31,465 bases of DNA, from positions 1 to 31,465 of IMG/VR virus record IMGVR_UViG_3300042557_000455. One strand, given 5' to 3'. This DNA comes from a virus. Made by a program: the position numbers and the translations under genes. Positions 11,230 to 31,465 of the stretch are shown here, piece by piece. The notes under the pieces are model-generated. The model did not search any database, was not told the origin of the DNA, and was given only the letters and a program-made list of their open reading frames with translations. The stretch's first letter is position 1, and every line of letters begins with the position of its first letter.

Positions 11230-11247
11230 ACTTACCTAAAACAACGA

Positions 11248-11280
11248 ACCCCCTATTCAGAACGAGTAGGGGGTTTTTCT
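11248..11280 (+). terminator. Rho-independent terminator ending the portal operon
   Basis: A perfect 8-bp stem ACCCCCTA/TAGGGGGT (11248-11255 with 11267-11274) has an 11-nt loop, followed by TTTTTCTTTTT. It isolates the portal operon from the early block. Confidence 0.9.
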
Positions 11281-11376
11281 TTTTAACCTGAATTATGGCA
11301 AAACAGGCTATGAACAAAAATAAATCTACTATAAATATATGTTGAAAAAACATATTAGTAAAATATTTTGACCCCA

Positions 11377-11407
11377 TTGAAACTTTCAAGATAAATCGTT
11401 ATATTTA
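11377..11407 (+). promoter_or_regulatory. Bacteroidota-type promoter of the structured RNA / DUF6291 gene
   Basis: TTG at 11377-11379, a 20-nt spacer, and TATATTTA at 11400-11407 (one mismatch to TAnnTTTG). Initiation would fall near 11412-11416, at the first arm of the structured RNA. Confidence 0.6.
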
Positions 11408-11413
11408 TGATAA

Positions 11414-11499
11414 TAGGTTGGCACCGAAAGATATTATATATAACTACCCCAGTTGAATTGATAGGATTGCCAACCCCTACTTTTTGACTGGGGTTTTTT
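11414..11499 (+). ncRNA. Structured leader or small RNA with interleaved arms and a 3' terminator
   Basis: Two perfect 8-bp complementarities are interleaved. Arm a (11416-11423, GGTTGGCA) pairs with a' (11468-11475, TGCCAACC); arm b (11446-11453, ACCCCAGT) pairs with b' (11487-11494, ACTGGGGT). The order a-b-a'-b' is that of an H-type pseudoknot, with connecting stretches of 22, 14 and 11 nt. A T-run (11494-11499) follows b', so b/b' is also a terminator stem. The promoter at 11377-11407 would start the RNA at the edge of arm a and the T-run would end it, giving about 85 nt. The ATG of the next gene is 2 nt beyond the T-run, so readthrough would give a structured leader. Together with the promoter and the terminator at 11248, this accounts for the gap between genes at 11230-11500. 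I cannot match it to a known RNA family. Confidence 0.55.
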
Positions 11500-11500
11500 A

Positions 11501-11950
11501 ATGAACAAAAATATGGAAAAAGAAATTGAAAGTTTTGTCGTTTATAAATCATTTTATGAAGCGATTAAAGATCTTGATAATCCTCAAGATCAGTTGAAGT
11601 TGTATAACTCAATGTTTAATTATTGTTTATATGGTGAGGATCCGGTATTGACTGGTGTCTGTAAAATTATGTGGACATTAATTAAACCACAACTAGATTC
11701 AAATATTAAAAGAAGAGAGGATGGTAAAAAAGGTGGAGCACCTAAAGGTAATAGTAATGCTAAAAAACAACCTAAAACAACCATAGTTGATTCAGAAAAC
11801 AACCATAGGTTAATTACAAAACAACCTAATGAGAATGTAAATGATAATGTTAATGTAAATGTTAATGTAAATGAAAATGTTAATAAGAATGAAAATGTTA
11901 ATAAGAATGAAAATCTAGAATTAGATTTTGGTCGTTGGAATAATTTATAA
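11501..11950 (+). CDS. DUF6291-like protein with Asn-rich repeat tail
   Basis: 149 aa. Residues ~5-75 (MEKEIESFVVYKSFYEAIKDL, then LYNSMFNYCLYGEDP, MWTLIKPQLDSNIKRREDGKKGG) match DUF6291, a domain at the N-terminus of many phage replication-region proteins. A basic linker follows, then an Asn/Val/Glu repeat (about residues 108-138) encoded by tandem AAT-rich units, and a short acidic/aromatic end (LELDFGRWNNL). This architecture (small helical domain, Lys-rich GAPKGNSNAKK linker, low-complexity Asn tail) is seen in replisome-organiser-like proteins, so a replication role is possible but not shown. The ATG at 11501 sits 2 nt after the T-run of a terminator-like hairpin; an alternative in-frame ATG at 11513 begins right at the conserved domain. 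Confidence 0.65.
   Translation: MNKNMEKEIESFVVYKSFYEAIKDLDNPQDQLKLYNSMFNYCLYGEDPVLTGVCKIMWTLIKPQLDSNIKRREDGKKGGAPKGNSNAKKQPKTTIVDSENNHRLITKQPNENVNDNVNVNVNVNENVNKNENVNKNENLELDFGRWNNL
11831..11915 (+). repeat. In-gene AT-rich tandem repeats
   Basis: These are short AATGTT/AATGTA-like units, ending with two exact copies of an 18-bp unit (11874-11891 and 11892-11909). They encode the Asn/Val/Glu tail of the DUF6291 gene and could act as iterons of an in-gene replication origin; that is an inference. Confidence 0.75.
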
Positions 11951-11986: not shown

Positions 11987-12673
11987 ATGGAATCAGTAAA
12001 AGAACTTTATAAACAATTAAGAAAATTATCAGTGACTATTCAACAATGTAATGGAATAAGTTATGAAGATAAAAAAGATATAATACAAGATACAATTATT
12101 TCAATGTTTCTTAAGTTGGAAGAAGGTAAGATAATAGATAATTTTGAGGATATAAAAGGGTATAGCTTTATTAATATTAGAAATAGATGTGTAGGGTTCA
12201 AACGTAAGTTAAAACCTACTTATACGGATGGTGAGGTAGAAGAGTTGGGAAATACTATTGAAGTAGATTTAGATAAGGAAGAACACAATTTATACCTACA
12301 CGGATTAATCAAACATTATATTCAACACGATAAGTACACTCATCTTCAAAAAGAGACCTGTAGATTACTTTTAGACAACAAGGACAACAAAGAGATTGCC
12401 GATGAGTTAGAAGTATCGCCACAGGAAGTTGCAAAGTTAAAATTCAATATTAAGAATAGGATGAAAGCTGACGCAAGAAGGAAGATACTCTATGTGGTAA
12501 AGAACAAGTATAATAAGAACCTTCAATATCCGTGTTATACAAGAGCGGACATTGGATATTTCTTTAAAGGATTATTCACATCAAGACAAGTTTCAAGCAT
12601 GATCTATGAAGGATTTGTCGCATATGATGGACATTACATTCAAAGAATATTTGAAAAAGAAAAAATAAAATGA
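11987..12673 (+). CDS. Sigma-70/ECF-like transcription factor
   Basis: 228 aa. Residues ~26-74 resemble sigma region 2: YEDKKDIIQDTIISMFLKLEEG, then FEDIKGYSFINIRNRCVGFKRK, i.e. the -10 recognition helix with conserved D-IIQDT-I-F and the basic end. Residues ~122-158 form a region-4-like helix-turn-helix (ETCRLLLDNKDNKEIADEL, then EVSPQEVAKLKFNIKNRM). About 65 C-terminal residues are unique, with an aromatic region (YPCYTRADIGYFFKGLF, SRQVSSMIYEGFVAYDGHYI) that looks like a second small DNA-binding fold. It could direct host RNA polymerase to phage promoters. A distant, degenerate sigma is the best reading; a HTH regulator of other type is the alternative. Confidence 0.6.
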   Translation: MESVKELYKQLRKLSVTIQQCNGISYEDKKDIIQDTIISMFLKLEEGKIIDNFEDIKGYSFINIRNRCVGFKRKLKPTYTDGEVEELGNTIEVDLDKEEHNLYLHGLIKHYIQHDKYTHLQKETCRLLLDNKDNKEIADELEVSPQEVAKLKFNIKNRMKADARRKILYVVKNKYNKNLQYPCYTRADIGYFFKGLFTSRQVSSMIYEGFVAYDGHYIQRIFEKEKIK

Positions 12674-12694: not shown

Positions 12695-13063
12695 ATGAAA
12701 AGACCAGACACAATATCTTTTATATTTGAGGATGTAACGGAACAAAATGTGGAACAACACCACCAAACAATGATCCAATTGTTAGATATGTTTGATTTAA
12801 CCTCTTCAATTCTAGATCATAATGAAGAATACAAACAGATAATAATTCAGTCCTTAATAGACATCTATGTGAGTTGTTTTTCAATGATTGAGATCTATAA
12901 CGAGCTTGAAAGATACGAATACTCCAAAGAGTTATACGACAAGTTAAAATTGATATATATCACAACGATGGACAGATTCCAAACAGAAGAAGATAATGAA
13001 GAAATATTTAACAAATTATTCAAAGATTTATCTGATCAATTCCGAGAGTATTTGAATGATTGA
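12695..13063 (+). CDS. Hypothetical acidic helical protein
   Basis: 122 aa, not recognised. It is acidic throughout and predicted largely helical (EQHHQTMIQLLDMFDL, IIIQSLIDIYVSCFSMIEIYNELERYEYSKELYDKLK). There is no membrane segment or metal-binding motif. The start follows the sigma-like gene by 21 nt and the stop overlaps the start of the next sigma-like gene (13056) by 8 nt, so all three are translated from one transcript. Position between two sigma-like genes suggests a partner such as an anti-sigma or a polymerase-binding protein, but this is speculation from context. Confidence 0.55.
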   Translation: MKRPDTISFIFEDVTEQNVEQHHQTMIQLLDMFDLTSSILDHNEEYKQIIIQSLIDIYVSCFSMIEIYNELERYEYSKELYDKLKLIYITTMDRFQTEEDNEEIFNKLFKDLSDQFREYLND

Positions 13064-13574
13064 TCAAATCCTAGTAGAAATATGTAAAAAAGGTTCAATA
13101 TATGACGAGATTATTGAGAACTTTATCGGTCATAAGAAGGAATATAAACTACCATTGATCAGTGAAATCAGTTTATCATACCTTGAAAATAGTCAAAAGA
13201 TAGAAAAGATCTATGAAGAGGGATGGTTCAAATACTATTTCTTGAATACAGTTAGAAACCAACTCTTTTCATCAACCTCATCATTCTTCAAGAACAATAG
13301 AATTAAGGACTATGGGGAGATTGAAATACCAGATGTGATAGATGATACCACAATTGAAGATAAGATTGATTTTGAGGAGAAATTGGATAGTGTGATGTAT
13401 GCATACACACAAGTTAAAAAGAATTGGTTTGACAATGAAATGTTCCAACAATATTATACCAACGGACTAACATACAGAGCAATAGAAAAAGAATATGGAG
13501 TTGACCATTGTCTAGCCTGGCATAACATAAATAGAACAAAAAATAAAATCAAAAAATATCTTAAAGTGAATTGA
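13056..13574 (+). CDS. Second sigma-like / HTH transcription factor
   Basis: 172 aa. The C-terminal ~48 residues (FDNEMFQQYYTNGLTYRAIE, then KEYGVDHCLAWHNINRTKNKIKKYLK) form a region-4-like HTH: an initial helix with Y-x-x-G-x-T-Y-R-x-I-x-x-x-Y-G-V, then a recognition helix ending in basic residues. The middle (EEGWFKYYFLNTVRNQLFSSTSSFFKNNR) resembles the end of sigma region 2 with its WFKYYFLNTVRNQ helix. The acidic DVIDDTTIEDKIDFEEKLD linker between them fits the usual sigma2-sigma4 connector. The gene starts inside the previous one (8-nt overlap). It probably acts on phage promoters together with, or downstream of, the 11987 gene. Strict assignment would need a profile search. Confidence 0.55.
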   Translation: MIDQILVEICKKGSIYDEIIENFIGHKKEYKLPLISEISLSYLENSQKIEKIYEEGWFKYYFLNTVRNQLFSSTSSFFKNNRIKDYGEIEIPDVIDDTTIEDKIDFEEKLDSVMYAYTQVKKNWFDNEMFQQYYTNGLTYRAIEKEYGVDHCLAWHNINRTKNKIKKYLKVN

Positions 13575-26244: not shown

Positions 26245-28257
26245 ATGTCAAACATTACCGAATATTCAAGATTGGTTTTTAAGAGATCTACCGTTGCAGG
26301 TATTGTCCCTACAATACCAACAGGAGATACGATCAATTCAACTTGGACAAATACAGATATTTTAATTGGTGAGGCTTTCTTAAATACACAAGACGATAAA
26401 CTATGGGTTAGAACTGACAATGGTTTATTAGATTTAACCGCATCAGGTGGAACAACAGGTTCTACAACTAACGCAAATGATGGATCAAACTCAGGTCGTT
26501 GGATATATGATATTTCAAAAGATCCTGCATTTGACCCTACTGCAAATTATTTTGCAACAGATTCATTTGATTTATCGGTAATGTCTGCAATAACCATATC
26601 AAACTACAATATTAACGGAACAGATTATTTAGAATGGTTTAATACATTGGAAGCCTTACACACTTTAGGTGGTGTTATGTATTTCCAAATAACCCAAGTA
26701 GGTGATAACTCTGTTATTGCAATCTATACAATTAAAAGTATATTCCAATATAGTGGAACACCAGGTTATGTATCAATATTATTAGATCCCCCATTAGTAG
26801 CAGATAACCAATTAAATAGTGATAGTCAATATACAATATCTTGGGATAGTGCAGGTGGTATCAATGGAACTTCAGGAACTAACGGAACATCAGGTACATC
26901 AGGAACTTCAGGTGTTAATGGGTCAACAGGATCTGCGGGTTCATCAGGAACAAGTGGTCTTGGACTTAATTGGTTAGGTGTATGGGATGATGCCTACACT
27001 TATCAAGAAAATGATGCGGTTAGTTTTATTGGAAGTAGTTATGTAGCATTAACAACAAATTCAAATAAAGCTCCTGATTCCTATCCAAGTGATTGGTCTT
27101 TATTAGCTGAAGCTGGTACAGATGGAACAAATGGAACATCAGGATCTAGTGGTAGTAGTGGTAGTTCAGGTGTAAACGGAACTTCAGGAACTAATGGATC
27201 ATCAGGTACAAGTGGAACATCAGGATCTAGTGGTGTGAATGGAACAGGAGGTAGTTCAGGAACAAGTGGTTTATCAGGTGTGAATGGAACATCGGGAACT
27301 AATGGTAGTTCAGGTGCTAATGGAACATCAGGAACAAGTGGATCCAATGGGACTTCAGGAACAAACGGAAGTAATGGTTCGTCAGGAACTTCAGGAGTTG
27401 GAACAAATGGAACAAGTGGAACATCAGGAGAAGATGGTTTACCTATCAAATGGTTAGGTGTTTGGGACGATGCTTATACTTATCAAGAAAATGATGCCGT
27501 TAGTTTTACTGGTAGTTCATATATTTCATTAACAACAAATACAAATAAAGCCCCTGATGCTAATCCAGGTGATTGGGGATTAATGGTTGAAGCGGCAACT
27601 GACGGGACATCAGGAACTTCAGGAGTTGGCACTAATGGAACTTCAGGAACAAATGGGGCGAATGGTACTTCAGGAACTGATGGTTCATCAGGAACTTCAG
27701 GTATTGGAACAAATGGAACATCAGGAACAAATGGAACTTCAGGAGTTAGTGGTGTTGGATTATACTTACCACTTTCAGGTGGAACTGTAACAGGTAATAC
27801 AATATTTACAAGTGATTTATTCTTAAGTGGTATAACAAGTGGACTATCATCAACATTTTTAACTATAGATGGTGATACAGGTCAAGTTTATTTTTCAACT
27901 AGTGGAGGTGGTGGTGGAACATCAGGAACGTCAGGTACAAATGGAGCTGCAGGATCAAGTGGAACTTCAGGTACAGGAGGTGGTGGAGGATCATCATTAG
28001 TAGTAGTAACAGGTGTAACATTATCTTCAACAGGATGGACATTTAATTCACCTTATTGGGAATATAGTGTATCAAATACAGGAATTACCTCATCAACATT
28101 GGTTGTAAGTTTCACACCATACAACTCATCTGTATTCAATGTATTGACTGCTCAGGTATACCCTTATATATTAGTAGAAGGATCATTGAATACGATAACA
28201 ATATATGCTGACTACGTGCCAGCAGGAGACATAACAGGAGATTTAATTATACAATAA
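26245..28257 (+). CDS. Collagen-like tail fibre with two carbohydrate-binding modules
   Basis: 670 aa. Residues 1-~205 are a globular N-terminal part that should attach to the tail. From ~206 on, stretches of Gly-X-Y triplets, nearly all G-T-S, G-S-S, G-T-N or G-V-N and almost without Pro, alternate with two copies of a ~48-residue module at about 243-290 and 403-450 (each WLGVWDDAYTYQENDAVSF, then GSSY..LTTN..KAP, then ending in DW). The module has the W-x-G-x-W/Y-x-x-G-D-x-V/S-x-x-x-G-S-S-Y pattern of CBM5/12-like carbohydrate-binding folds. The C-terminal ~160 residues form a final beta-rich tip. The Gly-rich parts probably make a triple-helix rod, and the modules bind surface polysaccharide. 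The next gene starts two bases after the stop. Confidence 0.7.
   Translation: MSNITEYSRLVFKRSTVAGIVPTIPTGDTINSTWTNTDILIGEAFLNTQDDKLWVRTDNGLLDLTASGGTTGSTTNANDGSNSGRWIYDISKDPAFDPTANYFATDSFDLSVMSAITISNYNINGTDYLEWFNTLEALHTLGGVMYFQITQVGDNSVIAIYTIKSIFQYSGTPGYVSILLDPPLVADNQLNSDSQYTISWDSAGGINGTSGTNGTSGTSGTSGVNGSTGSAGSSGTSGLGLNWLGVWDDAYTYQENDAVSFIGSSYVALTTNSNKAPDSYPSDWSLLAEAGTDGTNGTSGSSGSSGSSGVNGTSGTNGSSGTSGTSGSSGVNGTGGSSGTSGLSGVNGTSGTNGSSGANGTSGTSGSNGTSGTNGSNGSSGTSGVGTNGTSGTSGEDGLPIKWLGVWDDAYTYQENDAVSFTGSSYISLTTNTNKAPDANPGDWGLMVEAATDGTSGTSGVGTNGTSGTNGANGTSGTDGSSGTSGIGTNGTSGTNGTSGVSGVGLYLPLSGGTVTGNTIFTSDLFLSGITSGLSSTFLTIDGDTGQVYFSTSGGGGGTSGTSGTNGAAGSSGTSGTGGGGGSSLVVVTGVTLSSTGWTFNSPYWEYSVSNTGITSSTLVVSFTPYNSSVFNVLTAQVYPYILVEGSLNTITIYADYVPAGDITGDLIIQ
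26860..27765 (+). repeat. Tandem GGA-ACT/TCA-type repeats encoding Gly-X-Y, plus a ~145-bp duplicated module
   Basis: These are nine-base-like units (GGAACATCA, GGTTCAGGA and variants) encoding G-T-S/G-S-S/G-T-N. Two near-identical ~145-bp blocks (26971-27116 and 27451-27596, exactly 480 bp apart) encode the binding module. The repeats are coding and of variable unit sequence, not CRISPR. Confidence 0.85.
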
Positions 28258-30681: not shown

Positions 30682-31465
30682 ATGTCAACATCAAGACCAT
30701 TTGCATATAATACAGGATCAACAATATCAGGAACAATCCAAGTAGGATCATTGGCGGTTGGGACACCAACTACAGGATTTACAGGATCTATGGAATGGTG
30801 GAATGGACCTGATGAAGATTTGGGTTATGTAATTGCATTACCTGTACCTGATGATAGTCAACCTGCTCCTGATGGTAGAACTGCATCACTTGCTTTCAAT
30901 AGATCAACAGGTTTAACTGAATCATCTTTTGTTGAACTAACCAATTTATTATTTGGACAAAGTTTCACAACAGGTAATGACGCTTCATTTTGGTTAACAT
31001 CAAATGGATATTGGAATAGTTGGAATTTACCAACCCCAACACCAACACCAACTCCTACATTAACACCTACTTTAACTGCAACCCCAACTACTACACCAAC
31101 TTTAACCGCAACTCCTACACCAACTTTAACTTCTACACCAACTACTACACCTACTTTAACTTCTACACCAACTACTACACCTACACCAACTTTAACAAGA
31201 ACTGTAACCCCTACTAGAACTCCAACAAGAACACCAACACTTACACCAACAATTGGTATGACTAATATGGTTGTTGCGGGATCAAGTGGAACAAATGTAT
31301 TAGGTTATTCAACTAACAATGGAGCTAGTTGGAATGCAAGTACAAATGGTAATAGTTTAATTACTCAAGTTCAATCAATAGCAACAAATGGTTCTATATG
31401 GATTGCAGGTGGAAATGGAACAAACACATTACTATATTCAACAAATGGTATTACTTGGACTGCTT
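30682..31465 (+). CDS. Pro/Thr-linker tail adhesin with BNR-like repeats (3' partial at window edge)
   Basis: The ATG at 30682 opens a frame running off the right edge (261 complete codons). Residues 1-~115 (MSTSRPFAYNTGSTISGTIQ, then MEWWNGPDEDLGYVIALPV) form a globular domain seen in tail proteins of environmental phages. A Pro/Thr/Leu-rich linker follows (about 117-190), then a region with two BNR-like repeats, GYSTNNGASWNAS and YSTNGITWTA, each preceded by an AGxxGTN segment, as in propeller-type sialidases and photosystem-stability-like repeats. Joined to base 1 the frame continues into the 1-719 segment, giving 500 codons. It probably is a receptor-binding protein with a flexible Pro/Thr spacer; only two blades of a propeller are present, so either more sequence is missing or this is a short variant. 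Confidence 0.75.
   Translation, partial: MSTSRPFAYNTGSTISGTIQVGSLAVGTPTTGFTGSMEWWNGPDEDLGYVIALPVPDDSQPAPDGRTASLAFNRSTGLTESSFVELTNLLFGQSFTTGNDASFWLTSNGYWNSWNLPTPTPTPTPTLTPTLTATPTTTPTLTATPTPTLTSTPTTTPTLTSTPTTTPTPTLTRTVTPTRTPTRTPTLTPTIGMTNMVVAGSSGTNVLGYSTNNGASWNASTNGNSLITQVQSIATNGSIWIAGGNGTNTLLYSTNGITWTA
31030..31252 (+). repeat. Pro/Thr-rich linker repeat (right copy)
   Basis: These degenerate hexamer-like repeats encode Pro-Thr linkers. Bases 31046-31107 are identical to 1-62. Confidence 0.85.

Follow-up and report, generated by a model that had tools for sequence, protein, structure and literature searches.

Upstream of a DUF6291 gene in a phage genome, two pairs of complementary arms follow one another in the interleaved order a-b-a'-b' and end in a run of Ts. 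The question raised by this locus is whether the segment encodes a structured RNA and, if it does, whether that RNA controls the genes behind it or is a product in its own right. The window analysed here is the whole stretch of DNA, 31,465 bases with phage structural, lysis, terminase and replication-type genes; a first-pass annotation had read the segment as a short pseudoknotted RNA with its own promoter and terminator.

A terminator hairpin predicted to pair with the RNA 5' end

The two perfect 8-bp helices described in the first-pass annotation lie where it had placed them, at 11416-11423/11468-11475 (helix a) and 11446-11453/11487-11494 (helix b); the remaining features are given in Table 1. 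Folding extends helix b to 12 bp (11446-11457/11483-11494), two of them G-U pairs, and adds a 4-bp helix c (TAGG/CCTA) which encloses arm a' and closes a 10-nt apical loop holding it. The fold of the window RNA has a z-score of -2.69 with the pseudoknot left out. The intrinsic terminator that had been claimed is borne out: a G-C stem of 12 bp stands directly before six Us, the hairpin has a folding energy of about -22 kcal/mol, and it is kept in nine contigs. Within the window, this site is also the top-scoring match to a descriptor of the a-b-a'-b'-T order. As read from the sequence, the element is thus a putative H-type pseudoknot, in which the apical loop of the terminator hairpin (b and c) is paired to the 5' end of the RNA. 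In core members of the family, c and a' are separated by 1-2 nt and a' and c' by 0 nt; by known pseudoknot geometry, these lengths fit an H-type fold in which helix a would be stacked on helix c, with the RNA 5' end at the joint.

An alternative hairpin, AACCCC/GGGGTT (11472-11477/11491-11496), proved on inspection to be broken in L144 and L006, and was set aside as not conserved. A 13-nt direct repeat, ATGAACAAAAATA, flanks the promoter and RNA region at 11310-11322 and 11501-11513, and is possibly a chance occurrence or the trace of an insertion.

Table 1. Features of the leader and its surroundings. Positions are those of the window unless a contig is named.
Feature	Position	Strand	Remarks
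Terminator of upstream holin transcript	11246-11276	+	separates leader from upstream transcription
Bacteroidota-type promoter	11377-11407	+	-33 TTG 11377-11379, 20-nt spacer, -7 box TATATTTA 11400-11407
Arm a, GGTTGGCA	11416-11423	+	predicted RNA 5' end; partner a' (direct reading, covariation)
Linker L1, motif RAAAGAYATTT	11424-11445	+	sequence partly conserved
Arm b, ACCCCAGTTGAA	11446-11457	+	terminator stem, 5' strand
Arm c, TAGG	11462-11465	+	inner helix of terminator hairpin
Arm a', TGCCAACC	11468-11475	+	in apical loop of terminator hairpin; partner a
Arm c', CCTA	11476-11479	+	0 nt from a' in core members
Arm b', TTTGACTGGGGT	11483-11494	+	terminator stem, 3' strand
T-run of intrinsic terminator	11494-11499	+	TTTTTTAAT invariant across core family
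DUF6291 gene, first behind leader	11513-11950 (probable start)	+	PF19808, E=1.5e-18; start from homologues
Sigma-like gene, recurring in operon	11987-12673	+	PHROG 1740 'RNA polymerase sigma factor', E=3.1e-6
Second ORF-less stretch	L006 8838-9036	+	
Second ORF-less stretch	L128 798-1035	-	
Second ORF-less stretch	L102 2765-3005	-	
Second ORF-less stretch	L121 475-665	-	
Second ORF-less stretch	L098 1320-1515	-	
Second ORF-less stretch	L133 1779-1975	-	
Second ORF-less stretch	L106		similar

Distribution of the RNA

The architecture is carried by nine distinct contigs (the window and eight other phage contigs), all from one collection, whose hosts, inferred from promoter type and relatives, are probably Bacteroidota. 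A search with the portal protein led to L006, a phage nearly identical to the window up to position 11412. L006 keeps the promoter and has both the RNA sequence and the DUF6291 gene replaced; the same place is occupied by a different a-b-a'-b'-T arrangement (GATTGGAGT, ACCCCCTAC, ACTCCAATC and GTAGGGGG). Four more copies (L116, L118, L119 and L131) came from a descriptor scan of loci retrieved by holin and terminase protein searches, and L144, L145 and L148 were found by scanning for the 3' motif TTGACNGGGGTTTTTTAAT. Over 1.6 Mb of loci the descriptor gave nine distinct matches scoring at least 42; five passes over dinucleotide-shuffled sequence averaged 0.0 such matches, and a chance origin of the architecture is excluded. 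Each locus has one copy of the pseudoknot unit. A covariance model of 92 positions, built from seven sequences and restricted to helices b and c, matches seven sequences (the window and six others) at 88-102 bits, all of them the model's own; it does not reach L006 and L131, which have diverged too far.

No RNA family in Rfam 15 matched at its gathering score, in agreement with the first-pass annotation, which could name none; a permissive search returned chance-level scores only. We found no convincing copy of the RNA in the Bacteroidota phages Fpv5, GRNRAP2, TCUEAP1, BT12 and EMB1, and a model search of 792 Bacteroidota genomes gave none, which is weak evidence of absence as few candidates were scored per genome. 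Bacterial sequences with the same 3' terminator sequence turned out to be ordinary local terminators lacking the 5' arm, and a match to a looser pattern, L185, was a chance hit in GC-rich coding DNA.

Compensating changes in the interleaved helices

According to the first-pass annotation, its proposal would fall if homologous leaders did not keep the helices through compensating changes; the structure survived this comparison, and helix a/a' covaries. In an alignment fitted only to helices b and c, and so blind to helix a, six of the eight a/a' pairs are changed on both sides among seven phages, and 92.9% of the cells in the a/a' columns pair, although L142 is one base out of register. For the structure as a whole, 96.4% of cells are paired, a share that drops to 39-60% once partners are shifted by 1-3 columns, and there are 17 double-change cells, compared with 5.4 in shuffles and at most three in the shifted versions. 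Direct reading finds perfect a/a' arms of 7-9 bp in all nine RNAs. Each 5' end pairs over 7-9 bp with its own loop and over at most 5 bp with the loops of other phages; in shuffles, pairing of at least 7 bp has a probability of 0.0016 per pair of this cross matrix. The inner tandem U-G/G-U pairs of helix b are invariant in the core family, which argues for an RNA-level rather than a DNA-level element, because invariant G-U pairs are tolerated by RNA only. To judge from these comparisons, the claim of an H-type pseudoknot holds, the interleaved helices being kept by compensating changes, and we consider the predicted structure and its conservation firm.

Promoter, RNA start and gene start

The promoter, identified with TAnnTTTG as the -7 box consensus, has a -33 TTG and the 20-nt spacer that had been claimed for it (Table 1). 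The Bacteroides promoter consensus combines TAnnTTTG with a TTTG motif near -33 (PMC7366714), and the sigma-A box TAnnTTTG of F. psychrophilum occupies positions -12 to -5 relative to the start site (PMC9723704). The latter spacing, applied to the box in the window, puts the RNA start at about 11412, and we predict a start at 11412-11416, that is, 0-4 nt before arm a. The box lies 6-8 nt from arm a in core members, 13 nt in L006 and about 13 nt in L131 (read by eye); L118 is without a clear -33 TTG. Since the terminator of the holin transcript stands upstream, the leader's promoter would be the obvious source of downstream transcription.

The first-pass annotation also had the T-run touch the start codon of the DUF6291 gene, which now seems mistaken. 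The closest DUF6291 homologue, in L002, aligns with a start at window position 11513; the ATG is probably this one and not that at 11501, and therefore the T-run does not touch it. With this start, the gap between T-run and ATG is 13 nt, as it is in four other members. Seven contigs have 9-13 nt between the T-run and the next start codon and L131 has about 22 nt, which gives 9-22 nt for eight of nine; L006 has its next gene 246 nt beyond the RNA.

Genes behind the leader

The first gene behind the RNA is DUF6291 or DUF6291-like in the window, L144, L145 and L148, and in L142 it is truncated, with an N-terminus similar to that of DUF6291-like proteins. Elsewhere it varies: in L119 a 61-aa ORF precedes a DUF6291-like gene, in L141 a 119-aa unknown protein precedes an HTH replication-type protein, and in L131 a 62-aa protein precedes one of 746 aa that by eye resembles a primase/helicase. 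A sigma-like gene follows in the window, L006, L141, L144, L145 and L148, and thus in all six group contigs that are long enough, L131 excepted. The model of the sigma-like protein is of low confidence, its best fold matches being mostly ECF sigma factors at E 2e-3 or worse, and the L006 and L148 proteins match Sigma70_r2 below cut-off; we hold the sigma assignment with moderate confidence.

Together with 13056-13571, the sigma-like gene makes two different small sigma-/HTH-like proteins in one small phage genome; for the product of 13056-13571 the one match, a weak one, is to a PHROG of unknown function. At 26245-28257 a predicted protein has long GTSGTSG-type collagen-like repeats and is probably a tail or fibre protein. 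ORFs run off both ends of the record (3-719 and 30682-31464), and because both break within Thr-Pro repeats, this suggests a circular or permuted genome cut within a Thr-Pro repeat gene.

The leader is dispensable in related operons. Those of L002 and L122 run from a promoter without any such leader, and it is absent from L128, whose sigma-like gene is 90% identical to that of L145, and from L121, L122, L102, L106, L098 and L133, which also have the sigma-like gene. L128 retains the promoter and has another conserved, ORF-less stretch in place of the RNA and the replication-type gene. This second stretch of about 200 nt lies between the promoter (in L006, the pseudoknot RNA) and the sigma-like gene (Table 1). 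It contains a hairpin, AAGTTAT/ATAACTT or AAGTCAT/ATGACTT (a compensating change), around a pyrimidine tract and GGGGNNGGGGG; Rfam gave no match for it, and MAFFT with RNAalifold no consensus fold.

Proposed mechanism and alternatives

Our best reading, to which we give about an even chance, is that the element is a cis-acting, pseudoknotted leader terminator, or attenuator, of a phage operon that would also release a compact, end-locked short RNA. Transcription can start at the Bacteroidota promoter 0-4 nt before arm a, and the RNA would fold into the terminator hairpin (b and c, followed by U6), whose apical loop has stayed complementary to the 5' end of the same RNA through compensating changes. 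Most transcripts would stop at the T-run. The released RNA of about 85 nt would bury both its ends, one (5') by stacking on helix c and the other (3') within the terminator stem, while the read-through fraction would become mRNA for a replication-type protein and the sigma-like factor. Pairing of the 5' end with the loop may set how often read-through occurs, by stabilising or delaying the hairpin, and this may in turn be controlled by a factor that recognises the conserved linker together with the tandem G-U pairs. The downstream genes are probably reached by read-through, because the next start codon follows so closely in eight of nine contigs, and an attenuator is favoured because the holin terminator stands upstream and the 13 nt between the T-run and the ATG at 11513 are too few for another promoter. 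Three observations go against it: an attenuator would have no need of the 246-nt spacing seen in L006, the leader is missing from related operons (L002, L122), and no antiterminator was found. With a/a' forced, shuffled linkers paired with b/c as well as the real ones did (mean z -0.04; -2.69 in L006 alone). The two helices share no bases either, so the first-pass annotation was right that this is not a simple terminator/antiterminator switch.

The main rival is a trans-acting phage small RNA, in which the terminated 85-nt RNA would itself be the product, with pseudoknot-protected ends and a target in host or phage, and the operon behind would merely share its promoter. We consider this possible and clearly less probable than an attenuator: the 0-nt and 1-2-nt linkers suit a folded product with all its helices present at once, conservation of linker L1 is partial, and in L006 the RNA is retained with no gene next to it, but a start codon lies within 9-22 nt in nearly every contig. 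A riboswitch or protein-sensing aptamer, controlling termination through a ligand or protein bound by a conserved core (linker L1, the tandem G-U, GTTGRA and TAGG, with variable helices around), would account for conserved unpaired positions beside covarying helices. It seems improbable, since a search for a mutually exclusive alternative structure found no expression platform, the divergent L006 and L131 retain just part of the core, and the RNA was found here only in phage contigs.

The first-pass annotation had also suggested an autoregulatory site for the DUF6291 protein. DUF6291-like genes come next in the window, L144, L145 and L148 and second in L119, and the first gene of L142 has a similar N-terminus. 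Nevertheless, the two do not constantly occur together: the L002 gene, 82% identical, has no such leader, the RNA precedes other first genes in L141 and L131 and no adjacent gene in L006, and none of these three has a DUF6291 gene behind it. This leaves the suggestion with very little probability; as a search guide, too, DUF6291 homologues yielded only one close relative, without the RNA, and three distant ones. Slightly worse in our estimate is a DNA-level element, such as a replication origin or recombination site, palindromic by accident. Its location before replication-type genes would suit it, but the G-U pairs are invariant, the promoter and T-run are in register, and the symmetry is interleaved rather than nested. 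Chance complementarity around an ordinary terminator has a negligible claim: ordinary terminators with the same 3' sequence do exist in bacterial genomes, but nine matches against 0.0 in shuffles, the covariation and the cross matrix all stand against it.

Comparison with known systems

Like known intrinsic (Rho-independent) terminator attenuators, this locus combines a promoter, a short leader, a GC-containing stem with a U-run and the first gene of an operon; unlike them, it has the apical loop paired with the 5' end of the transcript and no competing antiterminator that we could find. The leader pseudoknot of T4 gene 32 mRNA, an autoregulatory protein-binding site and not a terminator, likewise lies in the 5' region of a phage mRNA, whereas the present knot includes the terminator and stands before differing first genes. 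PreQ1-I/II and SAM-II are H-type pseudoknot riboswitches with a similarly small, interleaved two-helix fold in a leader, but the present RNA has no useful Rfam score and no structural switch was found. The lambda pR' 6S RNA, the short terminated leader of the lambdoid late promoter, resembles it as a promoter-proximal terminator that needs read-through for the phage operon behind; here, in contrast, there is a conserved pseudoknot and no antitermination gene was identified. In type III toxin-antitoxin systems (ToxI, AbiQ), too, a protein gene is preceded by a terminator-bearing pseudoknotted RNA. There the pseudoknot unit occurs as tandem repeats (PMC8860590), whereas ours is a single copy, and the proteins here are replication-type or sigma-like, not ToxN-like (ToxN/AbiQ-type) endoribonucleases. 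A toxin-antitoxin reading was rejected, as the unit has no repeats and the genes downstream are DUF6291, HTH replication-type or sigma-like; no toxin or defence match was found among the proteins downstream of the RNA.

Significance

The locus yields a structured RNA with strong comparative support and no Rfam match, in phages that probably infect Bacteroidota; neither the phages nor the RNA regulators of that group have been studied much. We suggest only tentatively that a 5' end locking its own terminator loop through a phage-private pairing code represents a new class of phage regulatory RNA. If so, the lock would govern both termination of the replication/sigma operon and the lifetime of the released RNA, and the design predicts measurable effects on termination and RNA stability. 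The operon contains a sigma-like gene, and its sole evident promoter is where the RNA is found; the RNA may therefore govern the passage from early to later phage transcription.
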